39,405 nt of DNA from a virus, in IMG/VR virus record IMGVR_UViG_3300048834_000158, positions 1 through 39,405 of that record; one strand, given 5' to 3'. The notes under the pieces were generated by a model, which was not told where the DNA came from, ran no database searches, and was given only the letters and a program-made list of their open reading frames with translations. A program made the translations under genes and the position numbers. Shown here piece by piece: positions 4,074-38,886 of the stretch; position 1 is the first letter of the stretch, and the number at the start of each line of letters is the position of its first letter.

Positions 4074-4397
4074 CTACTTGTAGTAGCTGACGTTGAGAGT
4101 CGCCCCGGCGGTCTGCTCGATCACGCGAAACGCCGAAAGGTTGCCCGGATAGGTGAATTGCACGCCGACCGCGAGCGGCATCCCGACGCTGGCCGTCGGG
4201 TCGGCGCCGTCGTCGCGCCAACGAACGGCCTGATCCTCGGCGACGATGACGGCAAGGCGCGCACCGCTCGGCACGGTGAGCGCGGCGGCCACGCCGAGGC
4301 TCGTGAGTTGCTGATAGCCCAAGCACGTCAGGGACGCTTCGGTTACGGGCGAGCCCGCCCCGGCCCGCGATGCTCCGGCCTTGTAGGGTCCAGTCAT
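4074..4397 (-). CDS. small virion protein, hypothetical
   Basis: A 107-residue protein starting MTGPYKAGASRAG at 4397. It has an Ala/Ser/Gly-rich start and a beta-rich body (LAVIVAEDQAVRW, VQFTYPGNLSAFRVIEQ) and ends in NVSYYK. It lies between the lyase-like gene and the S74 tailspike, 11 bases before the tailspike start. The arrangement suggests a structural or assembly partner of the tail appendage, comparable in character to the small proteins at 674-1051 and 6093-6548. No known family was recognised and there is no membrane segment or signal peptide. Confidence 0.65.
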   Translation of the reverse strand: MTGPYKAGASRAGAGSPVTEASLTCLGYQQLTSLGVAAALTVPSGARLAVIVAEDQAVRWRDDGADPTASVGMPLAVGVQFTYPGNLSAFRVIEQTAGATLNVSYYK

Positions 4398-4420
4398 GGA
4401 CGATGTTCCTTTGGTTCGTA

Positions 4421-5308
4421 TCAGATGCCGATAGAAGCGCTCGGCCCGGCTACCCGCTCCAGCGGCACAGCGCCGTAGATCTCCGGGTACATGTCGGCGA
4501 AGGTGGCTTCGTGGTCGCCGAGCAAATACCCGCAATGCACAACCCGCTGGAACACGCTTGGCGCGCCGTAGCAACCGAACTTCGGCCACAGGCCGCCGCC
4601 GCCCCGATCCGGGCTGTTGTTATGGCAATTCGGTTGACTGATCTCGGCGAAGATAGGACGTCGATTCAGGTAAACCGTCATGTTCCCCGCCGTCGAATGA
4701 CTCCACGGATTTGCATGCACGTGGATGTCTTGCCACTCGCCGAACCGAAACGGCCATGACGCTACCTCGTGCGAGATGTCTGGTCCGGTATACGTGGCAT
4801 CGCTCGGATGGTTCTGCACCAAGGCGAACCGATAGCGGCCATATGAATCCACCCTCACGTGCACAGAGAGCGCGGGCTGTCCGCCACCCGTGTCCGCTGG
4901 GCTATCGTCCGGGATGGTATGCAGTTGAGCGCAGATGAAGAACGGCCCACCAGCGCCGGACAGATACGACAAGTCCTGCTCGGGCACCTGGAATCGGACC
5001 CGATACCGCTTGTACGATGAGTTCAGCGTCGCGCCGACTACGCCTTCTCCCACCCAATCGTAGACGCCGGAATAGTTGTTGACGGATATCTCCGTTCGAT
5101 TCCCGCTCGCAACCGTCGCATCGCCCGCAAAGTGCGTGATCTGGATCGCCGAATGTCCATCAATCGTGATGAGGTCGGCGCGCTCAGACATGGCACTAGC
5201 GGACAGATTGGCGATGAAATCTGATACGCCGTTGCCCTCGAATGCGGAGAAGTCAGAAAGCCCTTCTAGCGTCCCGGCAGGCCCCCAATGATTGACCTCT
5301 AGCGCCAT
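4421..5308 (-). CDS. putative tail depolymerase, polysaccharide-lyase-like beta-jelly-roll protein
   Basis: A 295-residue protein from ATG 5308 (MALEVNHWGPAG), coupled to the upstream gene by ATGA. The segments YKRYRVRFQVPEQD, FGEWQDIHVHANPWS, MTVYLNRRPI and WPKFGCYG occur in the order seen in jelly-roll polysaccharide lyases of the heparin-lyase-like type: a surface strand, a W-x-D/H-I-H-V strand, the strand carrying the -LNG/LNR- turn, and the final -K-x-G-x-Y strand. Several His, Arg and Tyr residues could be catalytic, but I cannot assign them. Its place between a lectin-like gene and the S74 tailspike supports a capsule- or LPS-degrading virion enzyme. It could instead be a non-enzymatic carbohydrate-binding module. 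Confidence 0.55.
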   Translation of the reverse strand: MALEVNHWGPAGTLEGLSDFSAFEGNGVSDFIANLSASAMSERADLITIDGHSAIQITHFAGDATVASGNRTEISVNNYSGVYDWVGEGVVGATLNSSYKRYRVRFQVPEQDLSYLSGAGGPFFICAQLHTIPDDSPADTGGGQPALSVHVRVDSYGRYRFALVQNHPSDATYTGPDISHEVASWPFRFGEWQDIHVHANPWSHSTAGNMTVYLNRRPIFAEISQPNCHNNSPDRGGGGLWPKFGCYGAPSVFQRVVHCGYLLGDHEATFADMYPEIYGAVPLERVAGPSASIGI

Positions 5309-22856: not shown

Positions 22857-23049
22857 GCTCGGCAGCAACGGCTCGCTTGAGGTCACGCGCAGCCAGTTCG
22901 TTCGCTGCCTCGATTCCCGCAACCACTGCATCGTCTTGCGCTGCCTGAGCGTCACGTTGCGCCTCCTGATAGCCGTCGAGGCGCCAGTACCAGCCGGCGC
23001 CCACGTGCGAACCGACGAACACGAGCGCCACGATCAGCCACACGTTCAC
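22564..23049 (-). CDS. Rz-like inner-membrane spanin
   Basis: A 161-residue protein from a GTG at 23049 that overlaps the desaturase stop as GTGA. It has an N-terminal membrane anchor (VWLIVALVFVGSHVGAGWYW) and a long periplasmic helix with alternating charges (EAQRDAQAAQDDAVVAG, LKRAVAAERARADKRAAAYE). This is the i-spanin architecture; Rz1 is encoded within it in a shifted frame. Together they complete lysis after holin and endolysin. The C-terminus is Gly/Asp/Arg-rich because it shares DNA with Rz1. Confidence 0.75.
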   Translation of the reverse strand: MNVWLIVALVFVGSHVGAGWYWRLDGYQEAQRDAQAAQDDAVVAGIEAANELAARDLKRAVAAERARADKRAAAYERSAGLQESIRTEIVYRDRDCRIPDADRLRVNDALAAARDAGESAAGRGDGAVPGAERSADAGSGGGDDQTARDGRGAGRVPSEAP

Positions 23050-23783
23050 GGCGCGATCTTCTTGAGATCCCAGCACGGCACCGACCAGCAGCCGCGCCGG
23101 TGATGCCGCTCGTGCATCCAGACGTAGTGCGGCAGGTACAGCGCCCGCTCCCACCATCGCGCCTCGTACACCTGCGTCACTTCCGGCCCAAGATGCTCCC
23201 GATACATGCGAGCACGCATAGCAGCAAGGGCCCCAGTAGCCATTGCCACCAGCCAGGCCACGAGAGCAGCCCATCCCAAGCCCACCACCACCAGACCGGC
23301 CAAGGCCAATACATACGCGCTCCGTGTCAGCGTCCAAGCGCCGGAGGTTGTCCGGAGAATCGCGAACGATTCCCGCCAGTGCATCCCGAGCAGATCCTTC
23401 ACGAGCAGCACGCGCTTGCGCCTCGGCGTGAGGTCGCGCCACCGATCGGCGAACAGCGCCCGCTGGTCGATCTCGGGATCGAGTTCGGTTCCGACGAACT
23501 GGTGATGCTGGATATGCCAGCGCCGGTAGCCCGCCACGTCGGCCAGCAGCGGCCACATGCAGAGCACGTTGCCGAGCGCGTCGTTGATCCGCCGGTTGAG
23601 CCGCGCCGTGCCATGCACCGCGTAGTGCACCGCCTCATGCCCGAGCACGGCGAGCGCATGCTGCCGCGTGCCGATGACGAGGATGGCCAGCGGCCACAGC
23701 AGCGGCCAGCGCAGCGCGCAGGCGTAGGCGAGCCCGATCAGCGTCCACTCGTATGCGACCCAGAATAGCCAGCGTCGTGTCAC
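23046..23783 (-). CDS. membrane fatty-acid desaturase-like protein
   Basis: A 245-residue membrane protein from a GTG at 23783 (GTGA overlap with the preceding stop). It shows the three histidine boxes of membrane diiron desaturases: HEAVH at residues 49-53, HIQHH at 90-94 and HERHH at 224-228, plus H197 in YREHL. Hydrophobic pairs at about 15-45 and 155-190 give the expected four membrane spans with the boxes on one face. Family members introduce double bonds into acyl chains or hydroxylate them; the substrate here cannot be read. It lies between the holin-like gene and Rz/Rz1, coupled at both ends, so it is made as part of the lysis cassette. Slightly short for the family, but no box is missing. 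Confidence 0.8.
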   Translation of the reverse strand: MTRRWLFWVAYEWTLIGLAYACALRWPLLWPLAILVIGTRQHALAVLGHEAVHYAVHGTARLNRRINDALGNVLCMWPLLADVAGYRRWHIQHHQFVGTELDPEIDQRALFADRWRDLTPRRKRVLLVKDLLGMHWRESFAILRTTSGAWTLTRSAYVLALAGLVVVGLGWAALVAWLVAMATGALAAMRARMYREHLGPEVTQVYEARWWERALYLPHYVWMHERHHRRGCWSVPCWDLKKIAP

Positions 23784-24220
23784 TTCGGCGGCTCGTCCGT
23801 CTTGCCGGTGATGCGCTGGCGCAGGAACGTGGTCAGCAGATCCAGGCCCGTGCGGAAAAGATCCACCGGGGCCGCCGCCACCACGCCCGCGACGAGCATC
23901 CACATGCCGCGCGATGCGCCCGGCTGGTCGGCCCACCAGACGCCGGTCGCCACACCGATCGCGATGCCGATGCCGACGCGACGCAGGAGCGAACTCGCCT
24001 GCGCGCGCCCAGATATCTCGTCGAGCTTGCCGCTCTCGATGGCGAGCGCCCATCCGGCGAATGCGCCGAGCAGCCCCATGGCGATGAAGCCGAGCAGCGG
24101 GCTTTGGTCGAACAGCCGATGCGTCTCGGTCAGCGTGGCGATGATGCCGGCGAGCCACCCTGACCCGTGCGCAGCTGCGGCCGGCACTGCAAGCGCCGCA
24201 GTATCAGAACTGGCGGCCAC
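23780..24220 (-). CDS. putative holin (multi-span membrane protein)
   Basis: A 146-residue protein. The start is GTG 24220 because GGAGG stands nine bases upstream; an ATG at 24289 lies deep in the previous gene. Three to four hydrophobic segments are visible: GWLAGIIATL, LLGFIAMGLLGAFAGWALAI, VGIGIAIGVATGVWW and MWMLVAGVVAAAPV, followed by a charged tail (LRQRITGKTDEPPK). The -LLG-A-G- pattern and layout resemble LydA/holin-3-type phage holins. It precedes the desaturase with a GTGA overlap. Which of the four small membrane proteins is the timing holin, and which an antiholin, is not decidable by reading. Confidence 0.55.
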   Translation of the reverse strand: MAASSDTAALAVPAAAAHGSGWLAGIIATLTETHRLFDQSPLLGFIAMGLLGAFAGWALAIESGKLDEISGRAQASSLLRRVGIGIAIGVATGVWWADQPGASRGMWMLVAGVVAAAPVDLFRTGLDLLTTFLRQRITGKTDEPPK

Positions 24221-31606: not shown

Positions 31607-33931
31607 TCATTCGCCCTCCCCTTTTTCGAGGAGAACGAACGCCTTACGCGGGCGGCCCCGGGCCGATTTCGTCTCGTCGACGCGGATGATGTCCGCGTGG
31701 ACAAGCCGTGCAATTGCCTCATCGGCCATTCTGCTGTTCGCAGCCCGATAGGCACGGCACCCGGATTGCAGCTCTCCTACTGTAGCACCTCTCGCGCCGC
31801 GAGCGGTGATGAACGCGAGCAATTGGTTGACCAGCCGCTCGAATGGGCTGTCTGCCAGGTGCATGCGCAGTTGATCGACGTTGCGTTCTGCGTGGACGTG
31901 CACGTATTCGATGGCCCAGGAGGCTGCGTCCGAGGTCACGGTGCTGGCGCCCATTGACATCGCGACGATGAGCGATACGCGCATCGCAATCTCGGTGCAG
32001 CGCTCGAGCATGCCGCCCAGCCCTTCCTCGTCCAGTTCGTTCGCCCGCTTGATGTTGTCGAGCTCGAACGCATCGAATAGCGCTCGCGCAGCGGCATCGA
32101 TCGCCACCACGATAGGCGTTGGGCTCAGCGTGGCGCCGACGTCCATGCCGGCCAAGTTGCCGCAGCCGGGGGCGCGTGTTCTCACGTCCTGCAGCCAGGC
32201 AATGACGCTCGCCGGCACTTCGGCGTCAGGCGCCTGTCGGGCCGGCTGCCGGCCAATGTCCGAATGCACGATGAGCAATCGGTTGAGCGAGCCATCGCGC
32301 ACCCAGCCTGAGCCGACCGCGGCGAACAGCGGATCGGGCGTGGTCATGCCAAGCAGGGTGAGCGCAGGGTTGCGAACGAACCGCTGCGTCATGTCCTCGG
32401 CCTGCTTGGACGAGAGCCCCGCGGTACTGTAGGCCGTCGGGCGAAGCACACCACCAGCGCGGCCGAAGACTTCGATGAGGTAGCGCATCGTGCCGTGCGC
32501 GAGCACGTTATTCGGGTGACTCGATTCCTCGAGCGTCTTTCCGAACTCGTCGACGATCGCGATGCACGCGGGCGTGTGCAGCAGGCAGGAGAGCACGCCG
32601 GCCTCGCTGGCGAAGCGCCCGGGGCCGACGAGCGATCCCAGGGATGCGGCCTCAAGCGCGGCTTCGATGGCGTGCTTTGCGTGCTCCTTGCCCGCACCGG
32701 AGCGGCCGACGTTGAGCAGGTACAGGCTCGACCAGTTGTTGTTGTCGGTCATGTAGCGCCGGGCTAGCGCCACGCTCCCAAGTGCCAGCGCGGCCTGCAC
32801 GTCGAACAGGGGTTGCGGCTTGTGTGCGGTGGCCGCGATCCACGCGACCGCCTCGCCCAAGACACCCGGGACCGTGAGCAGATGCGCGGGCACGGACTTG
32901 GCCACAGGCAGCGGTAGCGCAATCGGCTTGGCCGGCTGGCGCCGCGACTCCAAGAACTTCTCGATGGGGCTGGGCCCGGTGTGCGTCGGCCCGAGGATGT
33001 CACGGGCAGCCCGGACAGCGGCCCGGTAGTCGCCGCCGTGCTCGAGGATGCAGAACACGTCGAACGCATCGCACGAGTGCCCGTTGGCCAGAGGGTCGCT
33101 GGCGTGATGGCTGAACACCTTGCCATCGTCGAACCGGACGACGCCCGCGATGCGGGTCGACGATGTCGGCGAGAGCCAGCGCTTGCCGCGCTGCACGTAA
33201 CCGTGCGCTTCGATGAGGCCGATCGTGTCGTGCCTGGCGTTGAACTGGCCGATGATGTCGTCGTGGCTCTTGCTCATGGCGCGAGCCACGGGCGCCGGCG
33301 GCTCGATGCGCTGCTTGTTCCACGGGCACAGCGCCTCGAACTGCGGCTTGAAGGCGGGCCAGTCGCGCCACAGGGAAAGCAGTTCCACCGGCACGTCAGG
33401 GATCTGCGCCATATCCCAGGGCGCAGGACGCCACTCGTAGGGGCGGCCGGTGTCGGGGTGGATGCTCGGCGGGAGGACGTCTTGCACGCCGCCTGCGCGC
33501 AGCTCGAACACGGTGACTGGCTTGTCGCCAGCGCGTTGCGGTGGCCAGATCAGCTTGACGGTTGAAAGCCCAGCGGGCACACGGAAGAGCGCCTTGCCGT
33601 GCCCCGGGCGACCCTCGATCTGTGGATAGCCGTGCAGCAGTTCGTTGATCTCGATTCCGAACTCGGCGAACGCGACGCACGCCCATTCGGTGCTGTCGAT
33701 GTCGATGACGCCCGTACCCGAGAACTCATGCACGAGGCCAACGCCATAGCCGCGATCGTTGTCCCAGGTCGATTGCGCAAGCTCGGGCGTCTGGATGATC
33801 TTCGACTTGTCATTCCACACCGCCAACATCGGCGCCTTGCTTCGGGGACGCAGGGGCGTGAGAGCCCAGCCCATGGCGAGGTAACGCTCGGTGAGGCTGA
33901 GGGTCGCGTTCGTCATGGGTTGCGTCATCAT
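31607..33931 (-). CDS. prim-pol / helicase fusion replication protein
   Basis: A 774-residue protein from the ATG at 33931 (or 33928), in an ATGATGA overlap with the nuclease gene. Residues ~10-170 are an archaeo-eukaryotic-type primase-polymerase: GWALTPLRPRSKAPM, GVIDIDS with D77 and D79 as metal ligands, and PPSIHPDTGRPYEW with H158. Residues ~340-600 are a P-loop helicase of the DUF3987 type: Walker A GRSGAGKE at 409-416, Walker B ACIAIVDE at 455-462. A winged-helix-like end (GATVGELQSGCRAYRAAN) follows. It can prime and unwind at the phage origin and probably loads the host polymerase. No phage DNA polymerase was seen. Confidence 0.85.
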   Translation of the reverse strand: MMTQPMTNATLSLTERYLAMGWALTPLRPRSKAPMLAVWNDKSKIIQTPELAQSTWDNDRGYGVGLVHEFSGTGVIDIDSTEWACVAFAEFGIEINELLHGYPQIEGRPGHGKALFRVPAGLSTVKLIWPPQRAGDKPVTVFELRAGGVQDVLPPSIHPDTGRPYEWRPAPWDMAQIPDVPVELLSLWRDWPAFKPQFEALCPWNKQRIEPPAPVARAMSKSHDDIIGQFNARHDTIGLIEAHGYVQRGKRWLSPTSSTRIAGVVRFDDGKVFSHHASDPLANGHSCDAFDVFCILEHGGDYRAAVRAARDILGPTHTGPSPIEKFLESRRQPAKPIALPLPVAKSVPAHLLTVPGVLGEAVAWIAATAHKPQPLFDVQAALALGSVALARRYMTDNNNWSSLYLLNVGRSGAGKEHAKHAIEAALEAASLGSLVGPGRFASEAGVLSCLLHTPACIAIVDEFGKTLEESSHPNNVLAHGTMRYLIEVFGRAGGVLRPTAYSTAGLSSKQAEDMTQRFVRNPALTLLGMTTPDPLFAAVGSGWVRDGSLNRLLIVHSDIGRQPARQAPDAEVPASVIAWLQDVRTRAPGCGNLAGMDVGATLSPTPIVVAIDAAARALFDAFELDNIKRANELDEEGLGGMLERCTEIAMRVSLIVAMSMGASTVTSDAASWAIEYVHVHAERNVDQLRMHLADSPFERLVNQLLAFITARGARGATVGELQSGCRAYRAANSRMADEAIARLVHADIIRVDETKSARGRPRKAFVLLEKGEGE

Positions 33932-34518
33932 CCCCGAGTCCACTGGGCCGGTGCGCCCACTTGCCCGTGCTCGAAGCGGGCGGAGCGAGCGCCGACCCCT
34001 GCATCGATGACGACGGACCTGGGCAGGGGCTGGCCGTGCCATTCCTCTATCCCATCCTGGCGCTTGTAGTAGTAGAGAGCATTGGAGGCCCAATGGCGGC
34101 ACTCTTCCTCTTGCACGAGCAGTTGGACGGGGCGCTCCGTGATCCATCCGGCCGGCGCTGCTGGCGCTGCACGATTGCAGTCGATCCTGATGTGACCCAG
34201 CGGATCGCCGCAGAAGATGATGACGCGGTGCCCGGACCCAATGGCAAGCTGGCGCGCTTTCTCGATGGCGGTCTCGTCCGCTTGATCTCGCGTGCCCTTG
34301 ATCTCAACAAGATGCCCGGCACGCGACTTCGGTATGACGTGGCTTTGGATCGGCAGCCAGAAGTCCGGCAGGTACGATGACCCGTCGTCCAGCACAAAAC
34401 CCTCGGGCTCGTAGTCCCACACTATCCCGAGCCCGTCGAAAAACACCGCCCACTTGGCCTCTGTTCGCGACCGGAATCGATAGCCCTTGTATTGCGTTTC
34501 CTTGGCCCTGAATCGCAT
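33928..34518 (-). CDS. PD-(D/E)XK-type phage endonuclease
   Basis: A 196-residue protein from ATG 34518 with GGAG six bases upstream; ATG 34530 or 34623 are possible alternatives. The start MRFRAKETQYKGYRFRSRTE, WAVFFDGLGIVWDYEPEGF, YLPDFWLP and LVEIKG give E20, D52 and E72-x-K74, the restriction-endonuclease-fold nuclease core. Proteins with this start are common beside phage replication genes. The C-terminal ~80 residues are more variable. Probably processes recombination or replication DNA. Confidence 0.7.
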   Translation of the reverse strand: MRFRAKETQYKGYRFRSRTEAKWAVFFDGLGIVWDYEPEGFVLDDGSSYLPDFWLPIQSHVIPKSRAGHLVEIKGTRDQADETAIEKARQLAIGSGHRVIIFCGDPLGHIRIDCNRAAPAAPAGWITERPVQLLVQEEECRHWASNALYYYKRQDGIEEWHGQPLPRSVVIDAGVGARSARFEHGQVGAPAQWTRG

Positions 34519-34615
34519 CGTCTTCTCCATGACGCTCCGGCAAGGATTGCGCGGCAAGACGGCCGGAGAGTCCGCCCTTTCGGGAGCTACCCTAGCCGCG
34601 CAAATGCTGGTCATC

Positions 34616-34858
34616 TCAACCATGCCCGCGCCTCGCGATCTTCTGGGGCGACTCCATGCGCTGCACTTGCCTGGGCGTGCGCAGCGCCACGAGGAACCGC
34701 TGCGCCTTCACGAACCGCCCGTCGCCGGTCTGCGCAAGGCCGGTCGAGACGGCGGCGATCGCGGCCTCGAGCATGCTGTCGGCGAAGGATCCGCAATCGG
34801 GGCACTGGCGCGAATACCAGGCGCGGTGGATGGTGCAGAAGGTGTTGGCTGCGGTCAT
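34616..34858 (-). CDS. small Cys/His protein, hypothetical
   Basis: An 80-residue protein from ATG 34858 (ATGA overlap). CTIHRAWYSRQCPDCGS near residues 8-24 gives a possible C-H-C-C zinc site; a helical segment (ADSMLEAAIAAVSTGLAQ) and a basic tail follow. Typical of small early phage proteins. Function unknown. Downstream, about 95 bases up to the nuclease start carry no gene. Confidence 0.6.
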   Translation of the reverse strand: MTAANTFCTIHRAWYSRQCPDCGSFADSMLEAAIAAVSTGLAQTGDGRFVKAQRFLVALRTPRQVQRMESPQKIARRGHG

Positions 34859-35190
34859 TCCCCACCCCGCCCGAAGAAAGAAACAACCCGCGGCCTTGCC
34901 GTCCCGCGGTCGGACGCGATGCCTGCGGCGCTTTTCCTCGTCGCGGCACCGTGGGTCGATCTCGATGCCCGCCCAGCGGCGGGAGCGCTCCCCTGGGAGC
35001 TTCGCGCGGCCTGCCCACCGGGGGCCGCGCCGGCCTCGAGTCCAGCCGTACTAGCGTTGCTCGGAACCCACTCGTGGCGGGCGCAGAGCGTTGTTGCGCA
35101 GCCGCCCCAAGGGCACGGGCGAGCGTCGTGGGGGCAGCGGGAGGTCACGGTTTTCTCCCGCTTGGCATACCCGTTGCAGTCATCGCTCAT
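34855..35190 (-). CDS. Cys-rich then low-complexity protein, hypothetical
   Basis: A 111-residue frame from ATG 35190 with GGAAG close upstream, overlapping the preceding gene by 11 bases. The start has five Cys in RCPHDARPCPWGGCATTLCARH, a possible zinc site. The rest is Ala/Gly/Ser/Arg-rich low complexity, so the C-terminal half is doubtful. Couplings on both sides support a real gene. Confidence 0.5.
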   Translation of the reverse strand: MSDDCNGYAKREKTVTSRCPHDARPCPWGGCATTLCARHEWVPSNASTAGLEAGAAPGGQAARSSQGSAPAAGRASRSTHGAATRKSAAGIASDRGTARPRVVSFFGRGGE

Positions 35191-35428
35191 CTTCCGGCTG
35201 TTTCGGATCGAGCCCAGCCTTTAACCTTTGCTCTCCGACTGAGCCATAGAGTTCGCGAACGATGAGCCACCGCAACCATTCCTGCCGCGTCTTGTATCCG
35301 GTCTTGCGATACAACGTGATCAGATCCTCGAAAACCGAGGGCGTCAGCGTTGTCTCGACGCGGACATCCCACGGATCGTCGCCGGGGAGGGATCGGCTGA
35401 ATGACGGCTCGCGTTCGGCCATGGTCAT
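35180..35428 (-). CDS. small ribbon-helix-helix-like protein
   Basis: An 82-residue protein from ATG 35428 (ATGA overlap with the cro-like gene; a second ATG at 35422 is possible). The core VRVETTLTPSVFEDLITLYRK, TRQEWLRWLIVRELYG shows a beta strand followed by two helices, as in ribbon-helix-helix DNA binders. It lies second in the early operon. A regulator of early genes is likely; a toxin-antitoxin partner is less so. Confidence 0.55.
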   Translation of the reverse strand: MTMAEREPSFSRSLPGDDPWDVRVETTLTPSVFEDLITLYRKTGYKTRQEWLRWLIVRELYGSVGEQRLKAGLDPKQPEDER

Positions 35429-35661
35429 GCGGCGGCTTCTTGACTCGGGGCCTCGCCGAACACATCCGGACGAAGCTCGTAGCGCGTCACCTGGCCGTTC
35501 GTCGCCGCCTCGATGGCTCGGCACTTCTCGGCAGGAACGCACTTGTCCCGGTTCAACCAGTTCCACACATGGGCCTGCTTGCACTCGATCGCACGCGCAA
35601 GTGCAGTCTGCCCTCCGGCTATCTCGATTGCCCTAGCGAGGGCGGAAAGGTTCGTATCCAT
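35425..35661 (-). CDS. Cro-like / YdaS-family helix-turn-helix protein
   Basis: A 78-residue protein (MDTNLSALARAIEIAGG). The helix-turn-helix GGQTALARAIECKQAHVWNWLNRDK and the following VPAEKCRAIEAATNGQVTRYELRPDVF are the pattern of the YdaS/Cro group, in which the protein acts as the lytic-side repressor. The ATG at 35661 was chosen over 35667 because the predicted transcript starts near 35663. It opens the leftward early operon and faces the repressor gene across three operators. Some YdaS proteins are called antitoxins, but the position here is that of cro. Confidence 0.8.
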   Translation of the reverse strand: MDTNLSALARAIEIAGGQTALARAIECKQAHVWNWLNRDKCVPAEKCRAIEAATNGQVTRYELRPDVFGEAPSQEAAA

Positions 35662-35669
35662 GGACATGA

Positions 35670-35698
35670 ACAATACAACTACAGTTGTCTCGCGTCAA
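35670..35698 (-). promoter_or_regulatory. early leftward promoter (pR-like) driving the cro-like gene
   Basis: Minus strand TTGACG (35698-35693), 17-base spacer, TATTGT (35675-35670). The spacer contains operator 35675-35688. The predicted start is near 35663, only two bases before the cro-like ATG, so the mRNA would be almost leaderless. Confidence 0.7.
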
Positions 35699-35735
35699 CA
35701 TCAGCAGTTGTTAGCCGCAGGACAACGCGGGTTGT
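35675..35735. promoter_or_regulatory. tripartite operator between repressor and cro-like genes
   Basis: Three palindromes of form ACAAC-N4-GTTGT: 35675-35688 (perfect half-sites, centre TACA), 35698-35711 (ACATC-AGCA-GTTGT, one half-site base off) and 35722-35735 (perfect, centre GCGG). Centre-to-centre distances are 23 and 24 bp. Outer sites sit in the spacer of the two divergent promoters; the middle one lies about 42 bp before the predicted repressor start. Likely bound by the repressor and the Cro-like protein. Confidence 0.8.
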
Positions 35736-35740
35736 ATCGT
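35712..35740 (+). promoter_or_regulatory. repressor promoter (pRM-like)
   Basis: Weak -35 TAGCCG (35712-35717, 3 of 6), 17-base spacer holding operator 35722-35735, and -10 TATCGT (35735-35740, 4 of 6). The predicted start falls at about 35747, the A of the repressor ATG, giving a leaderless mRNA. A weak -35 with an operator centred near -42 suggests activation by bound repressor. Confidence 0.65.
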
Positions 35741-35746
35741 TTTCGC

Positions 35747-36265
35747 ATGGCTACCAAACGAAAACCGATGCCCGCCGAAGAGACCGGGCCGACGCCGTTC
35801 AACCAGCGCGTCGTGCAGGCGTACGCACTCGGCGAGGAGCGCGGCAAGTTCGCTTCTCAAGCCGAACTGGGGCGGCTCTTGGGGTGCTCGCAGCAGAACG
35901 TGAGCAAGCTGATGGCGGCGCGCAGCCACGGCTCCACATTCACCGTACGGTTCGCGAACATCTGCGGTGTCAGCCCGCTCTGGCTTGAGGCCGGCGAAGG
36001 CGGCATGACGCTGAACCGCGCCAGCATCTCGGACGACGCTGTGCTGGTCGCGGTTGCGTGGCAACACATGAAGCAGCCGCTGGCCGACCGCATTGCAATC
36101 GACGCCCTCGGCTCGGCACTGGAGCAGATGAGGGCCGATGACCCGGTGCGCCGCGGCGTCGAGAGGATGCTGAAGACGATCCAGAAGCGCCGCAGCATCG
36201 AGGCGGAACTTGGCGGCACGGTTCCGAAGTTTTCCCGCGCCCCAACGCACAGGGAGAAAGCGTGA
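35747..36265 (+). CDS. CI-like repressor without protease domain
   Basis: A 172-residue protein from ATG 35747 (MATKRKPMPAEE); a longer reading from 35513 runs antisense through the cro-like gene. The XRE helix-turn-helix lies at about residues 35-80: FASQAELGRLLGCSQQNVSKL, then FTVRFANICGVSPLWLEAGEGG. The C-terminal ~85 residues are helical and charged (ADRIAIDALGSALEQM, VERMLKTIQKRRSIEAE), with none of the Ser/Lys elements of the S24 (LexA/CI) peptidase. It should bind the ACAAC-N4-GTTGT operators and keep both early promoters off. Induction would need something other than RecA-triggered self-cleavage. Confidence 0.75.
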   Translation: MATKRKPMPAEETGPTPFNQRVVQAYALGEERGKFASQAELGRLLGCSQQNVSKLMAARSHGSTFTVRFANICGVSPLWLEAGEGGMTLNRASISDDAVLVAVAWQHMKQPLADRIAIDALGSALEQMRADDPVRRGVERMLKTIQKRRSIEAELGGTVPKFSRAPTHREKA

Positions 36266-36438
36266 TGACCAAGGCTACGAAGGTGCGCCTATTCGGCGGT
36301 GCCGTCCTGCTGTTCAATCTCTGGCTGATCGGCCGCTACGAACTCGGCGGCGTTGCGACGGTGCTGATGACACTCGGCTTCGCGATCGGCTTCGAGATGC
36401 TGGTCGTGCGTCCCATCGCCAAGTCGGACAAGGCGTAG
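36265..36438 (+). CDS. 57-residue two-span membrane protein in the immunity operon
   Basis: The ATG at 36265 overlaps the repressor TGA by one base (TGATG), so it is co-translated. Two hydrophobic spans, LFGGAVLLFNLWLIG and GVATVLMTLGFAIGFEMLVV, are joined by a short RYELG turn; the ends are basic (MTKATKVR) and polar (AKSDKA). Being expressed with the repressor, it should be present in lysogens. Superinfection exclusion or another lysogenic-conversion trait is the natural guess, not shown by sequence. Confidence 0.65.
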   Translation: MTKATKVRLFGGAVLLFNLWLIGRYELGGVATVLMTLGFAIGFEMLVVRPIAKSDKA

Positions 36439-36455
36439 CACGAAGGGGTGCCGCC

Positions 36456-36683
36456 CTGTACGAGTCCGGCCTGATCCTCCTGTTCCTGGCGTTCCTCATC
36501 GCCTACTTGGCCGCCCGCGCTCGGCTCGAATCGGCTCGCGCGATCCTGCGGCACGAGCTGCGGCGCCGCCGCGACTTGGACCCTGAAGCCTTCGCACGCA
36601 TCTTCCCGCACGGCCCGGAGCACTTCGTCACGCTGGTCACGAAAGGCAACCGCACCGCCAACAGGGAAATCCCGGGCACGTAG
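36456..36683 (+). CDS. membrane-anchored small protein, probable CTG start
   Basis: A frame of 75 residues beginning at a CTG (36456) with GAAGGGG seven bases upstream; no ATG, GTG or TTG occurs in frame between the previous stop and this point. It has an N-terminal membrane helix (GLILLFLAFLIAYLAARA) followed by a basic helix (AILRHELRRRRDLDP) and a small polar tail. Co-directional with the repressor, it is a second candidate lysogeny-expressed membrane gene. The start is uncertain and the gene needs proof. Confidence 0.5.
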   Translation: MYESGLILLFLAFLIAYLAARARLESARAILRHELRRRRDLDPEAFARIFPHGPEHFVTLVTKGNRTANREIPGT

Positions 36684-36745
36684 TTTGCCTTCCCTACTTC
36701 TTCGTCGCCCATACGCCCGCGACGGAACATGGAGGAATGCAGGGA

Positions 36746-37087
36746 ATGAACCGGGATAGACTCACGCCCATGGGGAGGCGCATCCGCGCCGGCATGATTT
36801 CGGTCGGGATTCGCTCCGAGAGCGAGCTTGCGCGCCGAATCGAGGTGTCGCACCAGACCGTCCGACGCCTGTTGTACGAGCCTGTACGTGTCGATGCTGT
36901 GACATTGTTCCGACTTTCCGACACGCTGCGCATGTCGGCCCGCTGGATTCTGCGGGCCGAAGGCGCGCCCACCGCGCGCATGCTGCTGACCCCCAGCGCG
37001 CAGCGCCTGGTCGAGATACACAACGGGCTGCTCCCGCCCGCCAGAGACATCCTGCTGAGCGCCGCCACCCAACTGATCGACACATGA
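36746..37087 (+). CDS. second XRE-type regulator
   Basis: A 113-residue protein from ATG 36746, with GGAGG ten bases upstream (ATG 36737 is too close to that site). A helix-turn-helix is visible at residues ~15-60: SESELARRIEVSHQTVRRLL, then VTLFRLSDTLRMSARWILRAEG. The C-terminal helices (LTPSAQRLVEIHNGLL) resemble short phage XRE repressors. It is transcribed with the repressor and stops 11 bases before the TGTCCG-N4-CGGACA array, so it is the prime candidate to bind that array. Confidence 0.7.
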   Translation: MNRDRLTPMGRRIRAGMISVGIRSESELARRIEVSHQTVRRLLYEPVRVDAVTLFRLSDTLRMSARWILRAEGAPTARMLLTPSAQRLVEIHNGLLPPARDILLSAATQLIDT

Positions 37088-37098
37088 CCCCGCCCGCC

Positions 37099-37236
37099 TG
37101 TCCGAACTCGGACAGGTGTCCGCCAGCGGACAGGAGATTGTCTGAGCCCGGACAATTCCTCCGAGGCCGGACAGTTCGTGCCCACGAAGTGAGCGCATAG
37201 ACCGCAAACTGGACAATCTCTGTCCGAGCGCGGACA
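37099..37236. promoter_or_regulatory. operator array TGTCCG-N4-CGGACA (five sites)
   Basis: Palindromic sites at 37099-37114 (perfect), 37117-37132 (perfect), 37139-37154 (one base off), 37158-37173 (left half degenerate) and 37221-37236 (perfect). Centre spacings are 18, 22, 19 and 63 bp. They differ from the ACAAC operators and fill the gap between the second regulator and the rightward promoter. Single sites could also fold as short hairpins, but five matched copies point to protein binding. Confidence 0.75.
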
Positions 37237-37252
37237 GATACCCGAAATAAAT

Positions 37253-37289
37253 ACAACCATAGGTGTTGACAGGCGACAACTCCGGTTGT
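37253..37289 (+). promoter_or_regulatory. two repressor operators at the rightward early promoter
   Basis: ACAAC-TCCG-GTTGT at 37276-37289 (perfect half-sites) and ACAAC-CATA-GGTGT at 37253-37266 (one base off), centres 23 bp apart. Same consensus and spacing as the operators beside the repressor gene, about 1.55 kb away. The proximal site occupies the -35/-10 spacer of the promoter, so bound repressor would block it. Confidence 0.75.
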
Positions 37290-37294
37290 ATCGT
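37266..37294 (+). promoter_or_regulatory. early rightward promoter (pL-like)
   Basis: TTGACA (37266-37271), 17-base spacer, TATCGT (37289-37294). The -35 is a perfect consensus and the -10 matches 4 of 6. The start near 37301 leaves a 60-base leader with a small GCCGG/CCGGC hairpin (37320-37334) and a strong ribosome-binding site before the ATG at 37361. Layout is the same as at the cro-like promoter. Confidence 0.75.
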
Positions 37295-37360
37295 CACTCC
37301 ATCGCTGCTGTCCAGCGATGCCGGCCAAGCCGGCTTCTCCACCACGGAAGGAGAAGGACG

Positions 37361-37720
37361 ATGACCCTCGCAGCAATCCTCACGCAGAGCGGCGAACTCG
37401 CCGCAGCCATCGCCAAGGTCCGAAGCGACCTGGACCGGCGGCTCGCCATCTACTACGCGCTCGACCACATTTCGTCCGCAGCCGACGGCGAAGCGCAGTG
37501 CGCGATCGTCAACGCCGCGGCCGACCTCAAGGCCGGGCTGATCGAGTCGGCCGACGACATTCTGGAGTCGGGCGACGAGCGGCTGGTCGAATCCATGCAG
37601 CGGATCGAGGGCTTCCAAGTGGCCTGCCGGTGGCGGCAGGAGAAGATCGCCAAGGACGGCGTGCGGGCTCGCGCAGCCAAGCAGCGGGAGTCGTACCTGC
37701 TGCGCCGGCAGGTGGCGTGA
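37361..37720 (+). CDS. early helical protein, hypothetical
   Basis: A 119-residue protein (MTLAAILTQSGELAAAIAK) with GGAAGGAGAAGG upstream of ATG 37361, one of the strongest ribosome-binding sites in the window. Mostly helical and charged (VRSDLDRRLAIYYALDH, then FQVACRWRQEKIAKDG). First gene of the rightward early operon, hence likely expressed at once after infection or induction. No family recognised. Confidence 0.75.
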   Translation: MTLAAILTQSGELAAAIAKVRSDLDRRLAIYYALDHISSAADGEAQCAIVNAAADLKAGLIESADDILESGDERLVESMQRIEGFQVACRWRQEKIAKDGVRARAAKQRESYLLRRQVA

Positions 37721-38151
37721 TGACCATCCTCGCCGACCTGATCACAGCGTCGAAGCAAGCCGCGGCCGCGCCTACCAAGGCAAGCCCGCGCCGCAAGCTC
37801 ACGCTCGCCGAGGCGAACGACGTGCGCAAGCTGCACGCGCGTGGCGTCAGCATCAACGCGCTCGCCACGCAGTACGAACTCAACCCGGCCGGCATCCGCG
37901 GAATCATCGACGGGCGCTACTACACGACGCCGGACCGTGCACCGTATGCGCCGATCACGCGCCGGGTCACATGGACCCACGCTGACACCCTCCCCGACGC
38001 CGACCTCGAAGTGATCGTGGCGACGAAGGAAGGCGAAGTCCTGCCGGCCTGGTGGGACGGAGAGGCCTGGCGAGACCTGACCGCGATGCCGCTCGGCGAG
38101 CATCAGGTCACGCACTGGTGCCATTACCCGCAGCATCCACAGGAGGCATGA
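37720..38151 (+). CDS. HTH plus DUF551-like protein
   Basis: A 143-residue protein; the ATG at 37720 overlaps the previous stop (TGATG). The N-terminal half has a helix-turn-helix of the resolvase/Hin type (LTLAEANDVRKLHARGVSI, then LATQYELNPAGIRGII). The C-terminal half TWTHADTLPDADLEVIV, then AWWDGEAWRDL and VTHWCHYPQ, is the pattern of DUF551, a small domain frequent in phage early proteins. The fusion may be an early regulator; the target is unknown. Confidence 0.65.
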   Translation: MTILADLITASKQAAAAPTKASPRRKLTLAEANDVRKLHARGVSINALATQYELNPAGIRGIIDGRYYTTPDRAPYAPITRRVTWTHADTLPDADLEVIVATKEGEVLPAWWDGEAWRDLTAMPLGEHQVTHWCHYPQHPQEA

Positions 38152-38154
38152 CCA

Positions 38155-38886
38155 ATGTCCGAAAAAACGATAACAGCCTACAAAGCATTCGGCCCCGGCA
38201 TGATCTGCCGAGGAATGCAATTCGAGGTTGGCAAGACGTACACGCACGAGGGTGAAATCGTCATGTGCGAATCCGGATTTCACGCCTGTGAAGTGCCGTT
38301 CGATTGCTGGTCTTACTACCCCGCCAGCATGACGTTCGCGCGAGTCACGATGACCGGCGTGAGCGACGAGACCGAGAACGACAGCAAGCGCGTCGCCGCG
38401 TCGATAACGATCGAAGCAACGCTGACGCTGCCAGAGTGGATCAAAGCGCACGCCGATGCCGTGGTGGCGCTGTGCAAGCGTGCAGCATCGGCGCTTACCA
38501 GCAAAGATGATGAACCCGCTGCCACGACGGGCAATTGGGCCAACGCTGCCACGACGGGCAATTGGGCCAACGCTGCCACGACGGGCGAAGGGGCCAACGC
38601 TGCCACGACGGGCAATTGGGCCAACGCTGCCACGACGGGCAATTGGGCCAACGCTGCCACGACGGGCAATTGGGCCAACGCTGCCACGACGGGGAAGGAC
38701 GCAACCGCCGCCTGCATCGGCTATGACGGCAAAGCGAAGGCTGGCGAGGGCGGGGCGATCGTCATCGCCTACTTCGACGGCAAGCGCAAGCGGCTCGCGC
38801 TCGGCTATGTCGGCGAGGGCGGCATCAAGGCGGACACATGGTATCGAGTGAGGGATGGCGTGCTCGTTGAAGCAGAGGAGTCCTGA
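38155..38886 (+). CDS. DUF7666-like protein with nine-residue repeats
   Basis: A 243-residue protein from ATG 38155 with AGGAGG eight bases upstream. The N-terminal domain (FGPGMICRGMQFEVGKTYT, CESGFHACEVPFDCWSYYP) resembles the DUF7666 family found in phages. The middle holds six exact or near-exact copies of A-A-T-T-G-N-W-A-N plus a partial seventh; the third copy reads E-G-A-N. The end is a small basic/beta domain. The repeats look like a pentapeptide-like solenoid or a protein-binding tract. Role unknown. Confidence 0.65.
   Translation: MSEKTITAYKAFGPGMICRGMQFEVGKTYTHEGEIVMCESGFHACEVPFDCWSYYPASMTFARVTMTGVSDETENDSKRVAASITIEATLTLPEWIKAHADAVVALCKRAASALTSKDDEPAATTGNWANAATTGNWANAATTGEGANAATTGNWANAATTGNWANAATTGNWANAATTGKDATAACIGYDGKAKAGEGGAIVIAYFDGKRKRLALGYVGEGGIKADTWYRVRDGVLVEAEES
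38518..38694 (+). repeat. 27-bp tandem repeat within the DUF7666-like gene
   Basis: Six head-to-tail 27-bp units (38518-38679) plus a 15-bp partial unit, nearly identical at DNA level except the third. Coding multiples of three keep the frame. Copy number is likely to vary between relatives by slippage or recombination. Confidence 0.9.

Follow-up and report, generated by a model that had tools for sequence, protein, structure and literature searches.

The virus record IMGVR_UViG_3300048834_000158, which was analyzed over its full length of 39,405 bp (the window), carries short palindromes in tandem between two divergent helix-turn-helix (HTH) genes and again beyond one of these genes. Their arrangement raises the question of whether an uncultured phage possesses a lysogeny switch of the lambda kind, and if so, which protein reads its operators and by what means. 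Judged from the DNA and its relatives, it is very probable that the repressor of such a switch binds the five palindromes, which are laid out as in lambda and 434. We consider it highly likely that a tailed phage of the temperate type has its immunity region here, with the repressor P0003 and the Cro-like protein P0001 competing for five 14-bp operators. The direct basis for this reading is the sites, the promoters, the gene order, conservation, and a correlation between a repressor residue and an operator base.

Features of the immunity region and of the compared locus L153
Feature	Position	Strand	Remarks
Primase/helicase-like replication gene	31607..34075	-	Prim-Pol + DUF3987; downstream of Cro-like gene
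P0001, Cro-like protein	35425..35661	-	Pfam YdaS (PF15943), E 4.7e-29, profile 1-65 of 65
PR-like promoter, TTGACG-17-TATTGT	35670..35698	-	sigma70 consensus scan; toward Cro-like gene
OR1-like predicted operator, ACAACTACAGTTGT	35675..35688	.	exact; in PR spacer; relatives share register
OR2-like predicted operator, ACATCAGCAGTTGT	35698..35711	.	1 mismatch (ACATC..); beside PR -35, directly upstream of PRM -35
PRM-like weak promoter, TAGCCG-17-TATCGT	35712..35740	+	promoter of repressor; register match by sequence
OR3-like predicted operator, ACAACGCGGGTTGT	35722..35735	.	exact; over repressor's own promoter
P0003, CI-like repressor, 172 aa	35747..36265	+	434-type HTH + three C-terminal helices
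P0002, second HTH regulator, 113 aa	36746..37087	+	in repressor operon
TGTCCG-N4-CGGACA palindrome array	37099..37236	.	between P0002 and PL; at 37099, 37117, 37139, degenerate 37158, 37221
OL2-like predicted operator, ACAACCATAGGTGT	37253..37266	.	1 mismatch (..GGTGT)
PL-like early promoter, TTGACA-17-TATCGT	37266..37294	+	sigma70 consensus scan; toward 37361
OL1-like predicted operator, ACAACTCCGGTTGT	37276..37289	.	exact; in PL spacer
P0005	37361..37720	+	first gene of PL operon; no function assigned
L153 repressor, 168 aa	L153: 3135-3641		without Pfam match
L153 Cro-like protein	L153: 2903-3136		different from P0001

Predicted operators and promoters

The motif ACAAC-N4-GTTGT, allowing at most one mismatch, has exactly five matches in the whole record and no others. 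The expected count is 0.45 per record, none of 100 dinucleotide shuffles contained five, and the maximum reached in an independent Markov simulation of 300 runs was three; all five palindromes of the earlier note are present as the sole matches in the record, beyond chance. As in OR/OL systems of the lambda/434 type, three of them lie between divergent repressor and Cro-like HTH genes. Their centers are 23 and 24 bp apart, and the two distal sites, which share the same sequence and lie about 1.55 kb away beyond the repressor gene, are separated by 23 bp. In lambda, the center spacings of OR1-OR2-OR3 are 24 and 23, so the claimed resemblance is seen; the order from cro to repressor is 23 then 24 here and reversed in lambda, a trivial difference. 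One site per group is degenerate by one base, as had been proposed for graded sites, and this feature recurs in many independent phages. The claim that the operator has its own sequence survives for the C at position 5; the remainder of the half-site is 434-type ACAA, and dozens of IMG/VR phages have tandem copies. A literature search found no published ACAAC/GTTGT operators, and the DNA of the region gave no match to annotated phages.

A sigma70-like consensus scan over 3.6 kb returned two matches only, PR and PL, one per operator cluster, and in both the -35 hexamer starts 10 nt before the operator. In PRM, the same register is occupied by the third exact operator, yet the -35 hexamer there is poor, and PRM is called weak because the scan missed it; the proposal that an operator fills the spacer of all three promoters therefore stands for the strong PR and PL and is qualified for PRM. 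Transcription from PR is predicted to start within a few nucleotides of the ATG at 35661, giving a near-leaderless message, while the PRM start would fall at about 35747, the A of the repressor ATG, with the center of OR2 at about -42. By analogy with lambda, PRM and OR2 would be positioned as in a PRM that depends on an activator. A search of 34600-38200 gave no intrinsic terminator.

Leftward of OR, P0001 is followed by small genes and then by the primase/helicase gene; rightward, P0003 is followed by two small genes, P0002, the TGTCCG array, and PL. The nearest solved structure to P0001 is a Cro protein (3bd1). Its neighbor P0004 has no family match, and YdaT was not recognized there. The phage is taken to be tailed because head, portal, terminase, and tail-fiber genes are present in the record. 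The record, which may be a fragment, yielded neither a tyrosine integrase nor a serine resolvase nor a member of the ParA family, and temperateness therefore rests on the switch itself. Elsewhere in the window, 23049-24158 encodes a protein with a partial match, far below cut-off, to fatty-acid-desaturase-like oxygenases (GntB/DesB), possibly a metabolic cargo gene, and 38155-38886 encodes a DUF7666 protein with tandem ATTGNWANA-type repeats.

The repressor and its probable recognition residue

The recognition helix of P0003, SQQNVSKL, contains the equivalents of Gln28-Gln29 of 434 and a lysine at 434 position 33 (Lys54 of P0003). By single sequence, the nearest solved relative of its HTH is the 434 repressor, a weak match (E 0.07), while the family profile finds 434 Cro (E 2e-21) and the 434 repressor (E 7e-19), and the same two proteins are the best fold matches of the predicted model. 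Together with the ACAA..TTGT operator, the glutamine pair places the DNA-binding domain of P0003 in the 434 HTH class. The HTH is modeled with confidence, as is a helical C-terminal part (residues 111-160, pLDDT about 75-91). Domain search found no S24 peptidase domain in P0003 or in the rest of the record, and no close homologue of P0003 was found in the collections searched, which included viral and genome contigs. The region would work like the lambda/434 type, but P0003, lacking S24, is not a full CI-type protein of that kind.

Across related loci, the identity of residue 33 tracks operator base 5. Lysine or arginine stands at this position in 24 of 28 distinct helices beside ACAAC sites (P0003 counted) and in 0 of 13 beside ACAAG (Fisher p 1.4e-7, uncorrected for ancestry), a value that overstates independence because the compared helices share ancestry. 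Helix assignment was automatic and imperfect, so that a few helices, e.g. that of L226, may be misaligned; an apparent K33 in L269 came from an unrelated HTH gene, the true repressor (seen as L028) having Gln there, and L269 was excluded by hand. K33 repressors with another residue 29 keep the C at position 5, Val accompanying ATAAC (L048) and Glu accompanying AGAAC (L117). An exception to the pattern is L012, which has Ala33 beside ACAAC-like sites. In the 933W repressor, Lys46, equivalent to 434 position 33, has been modeled on the G of the conserved C.G pair at position 5, and specific binding is lost in K46A (PMC3317979). The tracking of base 5 by residue 33, taken with Lys46 of 933W, ties the repressor and not just Cro to the ACAAC sites. 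It also suggests that operator sequence is predictable from one repressor residue, K/R33 corresponding to C5. The case further suggests that DNA sequence is enough to detect such switches in uncultured phages, which would allow immunity groups to be assigned.

Relatives and motif scan

In L005 and L006, whose Cro proteins are the closest relatives of P0001 (64-68% identity), OR and OL both contain the same operators as here, with the middle OR site degenerate by one base; the GGTGT variant of our OL2-like site is OR2 in both. Loci collected by similarity of Cro or repressor follow the same plan with other half-sites (ACAAG, ATAAC, AGAAC, ATAGG, ATGGG, ACCGG), and their OL pairs lie 0.3 to 3.4 kb away. 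Among relatives, the degenerate OR site is usually the middle one, and the PR offset is -8 to -11 in 28 of 37 scored loci, with PL in register in 25 of 25, in a scan that allowed offsets of -26 to +15 and in which a few loci are near-duplicates.

The reverse search, in which tandem ACAAC sites were sought in IMG/VR by motif only, yielded 94 stretches (L154-L247). In 45 of them, a gene for a related HTH repressor, for a YdaS-type Cro, or for both lies within 400 bp; 43 of these have a repressor match, and the site spacing in the 45 is almost always 22-26 or 45-49 bp. Most of them have promoters in register; a motif scan of relatives had been proposed as a check in the earlier note. The same operator sequence, OR/OL clusters, and YdaS-type Cro are found in L178, L188, L228, L236, L245, L005, L006, and others. 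The repressor in these uncultured IMG/VR relatives is mostly longer, and the sequence of P0003 is not common to them. Tandem matches 27, 29-33, 36, 42, and 44 bp apart mostly lack a nearby repressor or Cro gene and were excluded as other repeats. Many IMG/VR contigs that lack repressor and Cro genes have tandem ACAAC-N4-GTTGT copies at intervals of 30, 33, or 36 bp, which represent another kind of repeat.

The proposal of a lambda-like OR/OL system is upheld by these comparisons, its architecture, divergent repressor and Cro genes, and promoter-spacer operators recurring in many independent phages. Since this arrangement recurs in dozens of uncultured phages, the locus is a new and well-supported case of a switch type already known. 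It belongs to a class, with a 434-type half-site carrying C5 and a YdaS-type Cro, that is common among such phages.

A second regulator and a heteroimmune relative

Between P0002 and PL, TGTCCG-N4-CGGACA palindromes follow one another about 18-22 bp apart from 37099 to 37158, with one more at 37221. They are probably operators of P0002; the alternative is a replication or partition site. No homologues of P0002 were found in annotated phages and plasmids, and its one viral relative, also sought with alignment, is in L153 (68-69% identity). L153 keeps the array, shared flanking DNA, and a nearby element, GTGAGCGCATAGACCG. Its repressor and Cro-like gene differ from P0003 and P0001, and it has no ACAAC sites; in their place are TAC-N5-GTA operators, two in OR and two in OL, one of which lies in the PL spacer. 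The PL hexamers are identical in the two phages, while the operator between them is replaced. Compared at the sequence level, OR and OL have been exchanged together with repressor and Cro around a conserved P0002 block, and this joint exchange supports the distal and proximal sites being one system.

A more elaborate possibility, to which we give rather little credence, is a two-layer immunity in which an exchangeable, peptidase-less CI/Cro module with its three plus two operators surrounds a conserved P0002 and TGTCCG array. Were this design true, induction would proceed via P0002 or another partner and not by RecA cleavage of the repressor.

A model of the switch and its alternatives

In the switch that we propose, P0003 on the OR1- and OL1-like sites would occupy the spacers of PR and PL and block RNA polymerase, keeping the leftward replication operon and the rightward PL operon off. 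On the weaker OR2-like site, P0003 would be placed to activate the weak PRM, and filling of the OR3-like site, probably by Cro first, would shut off the repressor gene. P0003 is predicted to recognize ACAA with the two glutamines it shares with 434, and to recognize the C.G pair at position 5 with Lys33. Binding by P0003 and P0001, activation at OR2, and the order of occupancy are what we infer from this layout.

Cooperativity and looping in lambda depend on the S24-type C-terminal domain, which is missing from P0003, so the spacing does not imply cooperativity or looping of the lambda kind, or induction through RecA. Moreover, the 3+2 layout and its phasing are common to short repressors (P0003, L028, L116, L117) and S24 repressors (L006, L152), and the same spacing with both types is therefore not evidence for the lambda mechanism. 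The earlier suggestion that spacing indicates cooperative dimer-dimer binding and looping is accordingly unsupported as it was put; operators spaced as in lambda also accompany repressors without the domain on which lambda cooperativity depends, and the 933W repressor is reported to bind lambda-like operators non-cooperatively (PMC3317979). Pairwise cooperativity with OR-OL looping would nevertheless refine the switch proposed above rather than exclude it, and we regard it as possible, if somewhat short of an even chance: the helical phasing of 22-26 bp and the paired distal sites are kept in many relatives, OR2 tends to be the weakest of the sites, as one that relies on its neighbor would be, and PaaR2 of CP-933P, a functional CI analogue, octamerizes (PMC8630535). 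By analogy, P0003 may cooperate or oligomerize by another route, while its induction by RecA cleavage is unlikely.

It is very unlikely that the ACAAC sites serve the Cro-like protein only, with P0003 binding elsewhere, for instance at the TGTCCG array, and controlling the switch indirectly. Both HTH proteins are candidates, CP-933P has two overlapping repeat kinds for PaaR2 and YdaS (PMC8630535), and QQ..K also appears in the Cro helix at some ACAAC loci; but base 5 tracks residue 33 of the adjacent repressor across many phages, the Cro core motif KQAHVWNW stands beside ACAAC and ACAAG operators alike, and the TGTCCG array goes with P0002 and not P0003, being kept in L153 where the repressor is replaced. 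Also very unlikely is that P0003 arose from a CI by loss of the peptidase domain, leaving a degenerate switch. In favor of this, the 89-aa repressor of L005 (4651-4917), without a C-terminal domain, has almost the same operators next to it as L006 with its S24 repressor (4198-4977); OL in L005 is only 0.45 kb away, and a deletion possibly took the C-terminal domain and neighbors. Against it, P0003 has a confidently modeled helical C-terminal region, short repressors with comparable helical tails and intact operator sets occur in L018, L024, L116, L117, and L028, and there is no S24 remnant in the record.

Comparison with known systems

The proposed competition of P0003 and P0001 for five operators can be set against several characterized switches. 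Operators of phage 434 are 14 bp long with ACAA..TTGT ends, as are those here, and the HTH of P0003 is closest to 434 by profile and fold, including the Gln28-Gln29 equivalents. The two differ in the C at half-site position 5, in Lys for Gln at position 33, in the lack of S24, and in P0001 being of the YdaS/Xfaso type and not a 434 Cro. In the CP-933P and Rac prophages of E. coli (PaaR2 or RacR, YdaS, YdaT), a YdaS-family Cro is likewise divergent from a repressor that functions as CI, with PR, PRM, and PL promoters and OR and OL operators (PMC8630535). The inverted repeats of CP-933P, however, are 18 bp long with consensus GTTTAGTAA, four of them in OR, whereas the ACAAC sites of our record are 14 bp long and number three in OR and two in OL, and no YdaT was recognized beside the Cro-like gene. 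Phage 933W shares the lysine equivalent to 434 position 33, the C.G at half-site position 5, and a lambda-like OR/OL (PMC3317979), but it is a lambdoid phage whose operators are 15 bp about a central base pair, with their own sequence. Finally, the CI of TP901-1 (180 aa) resembles P0003 in size, in combining an HTH and further oligomerization parts with no detectable peptidase, and in having a distant operator (PMC7250872); unlike the present switch, TP901-1 is lactococcal, its partner MOR is an anti-repressor, and its operators OR, OL, and OD are accompanied by composite OM sites.
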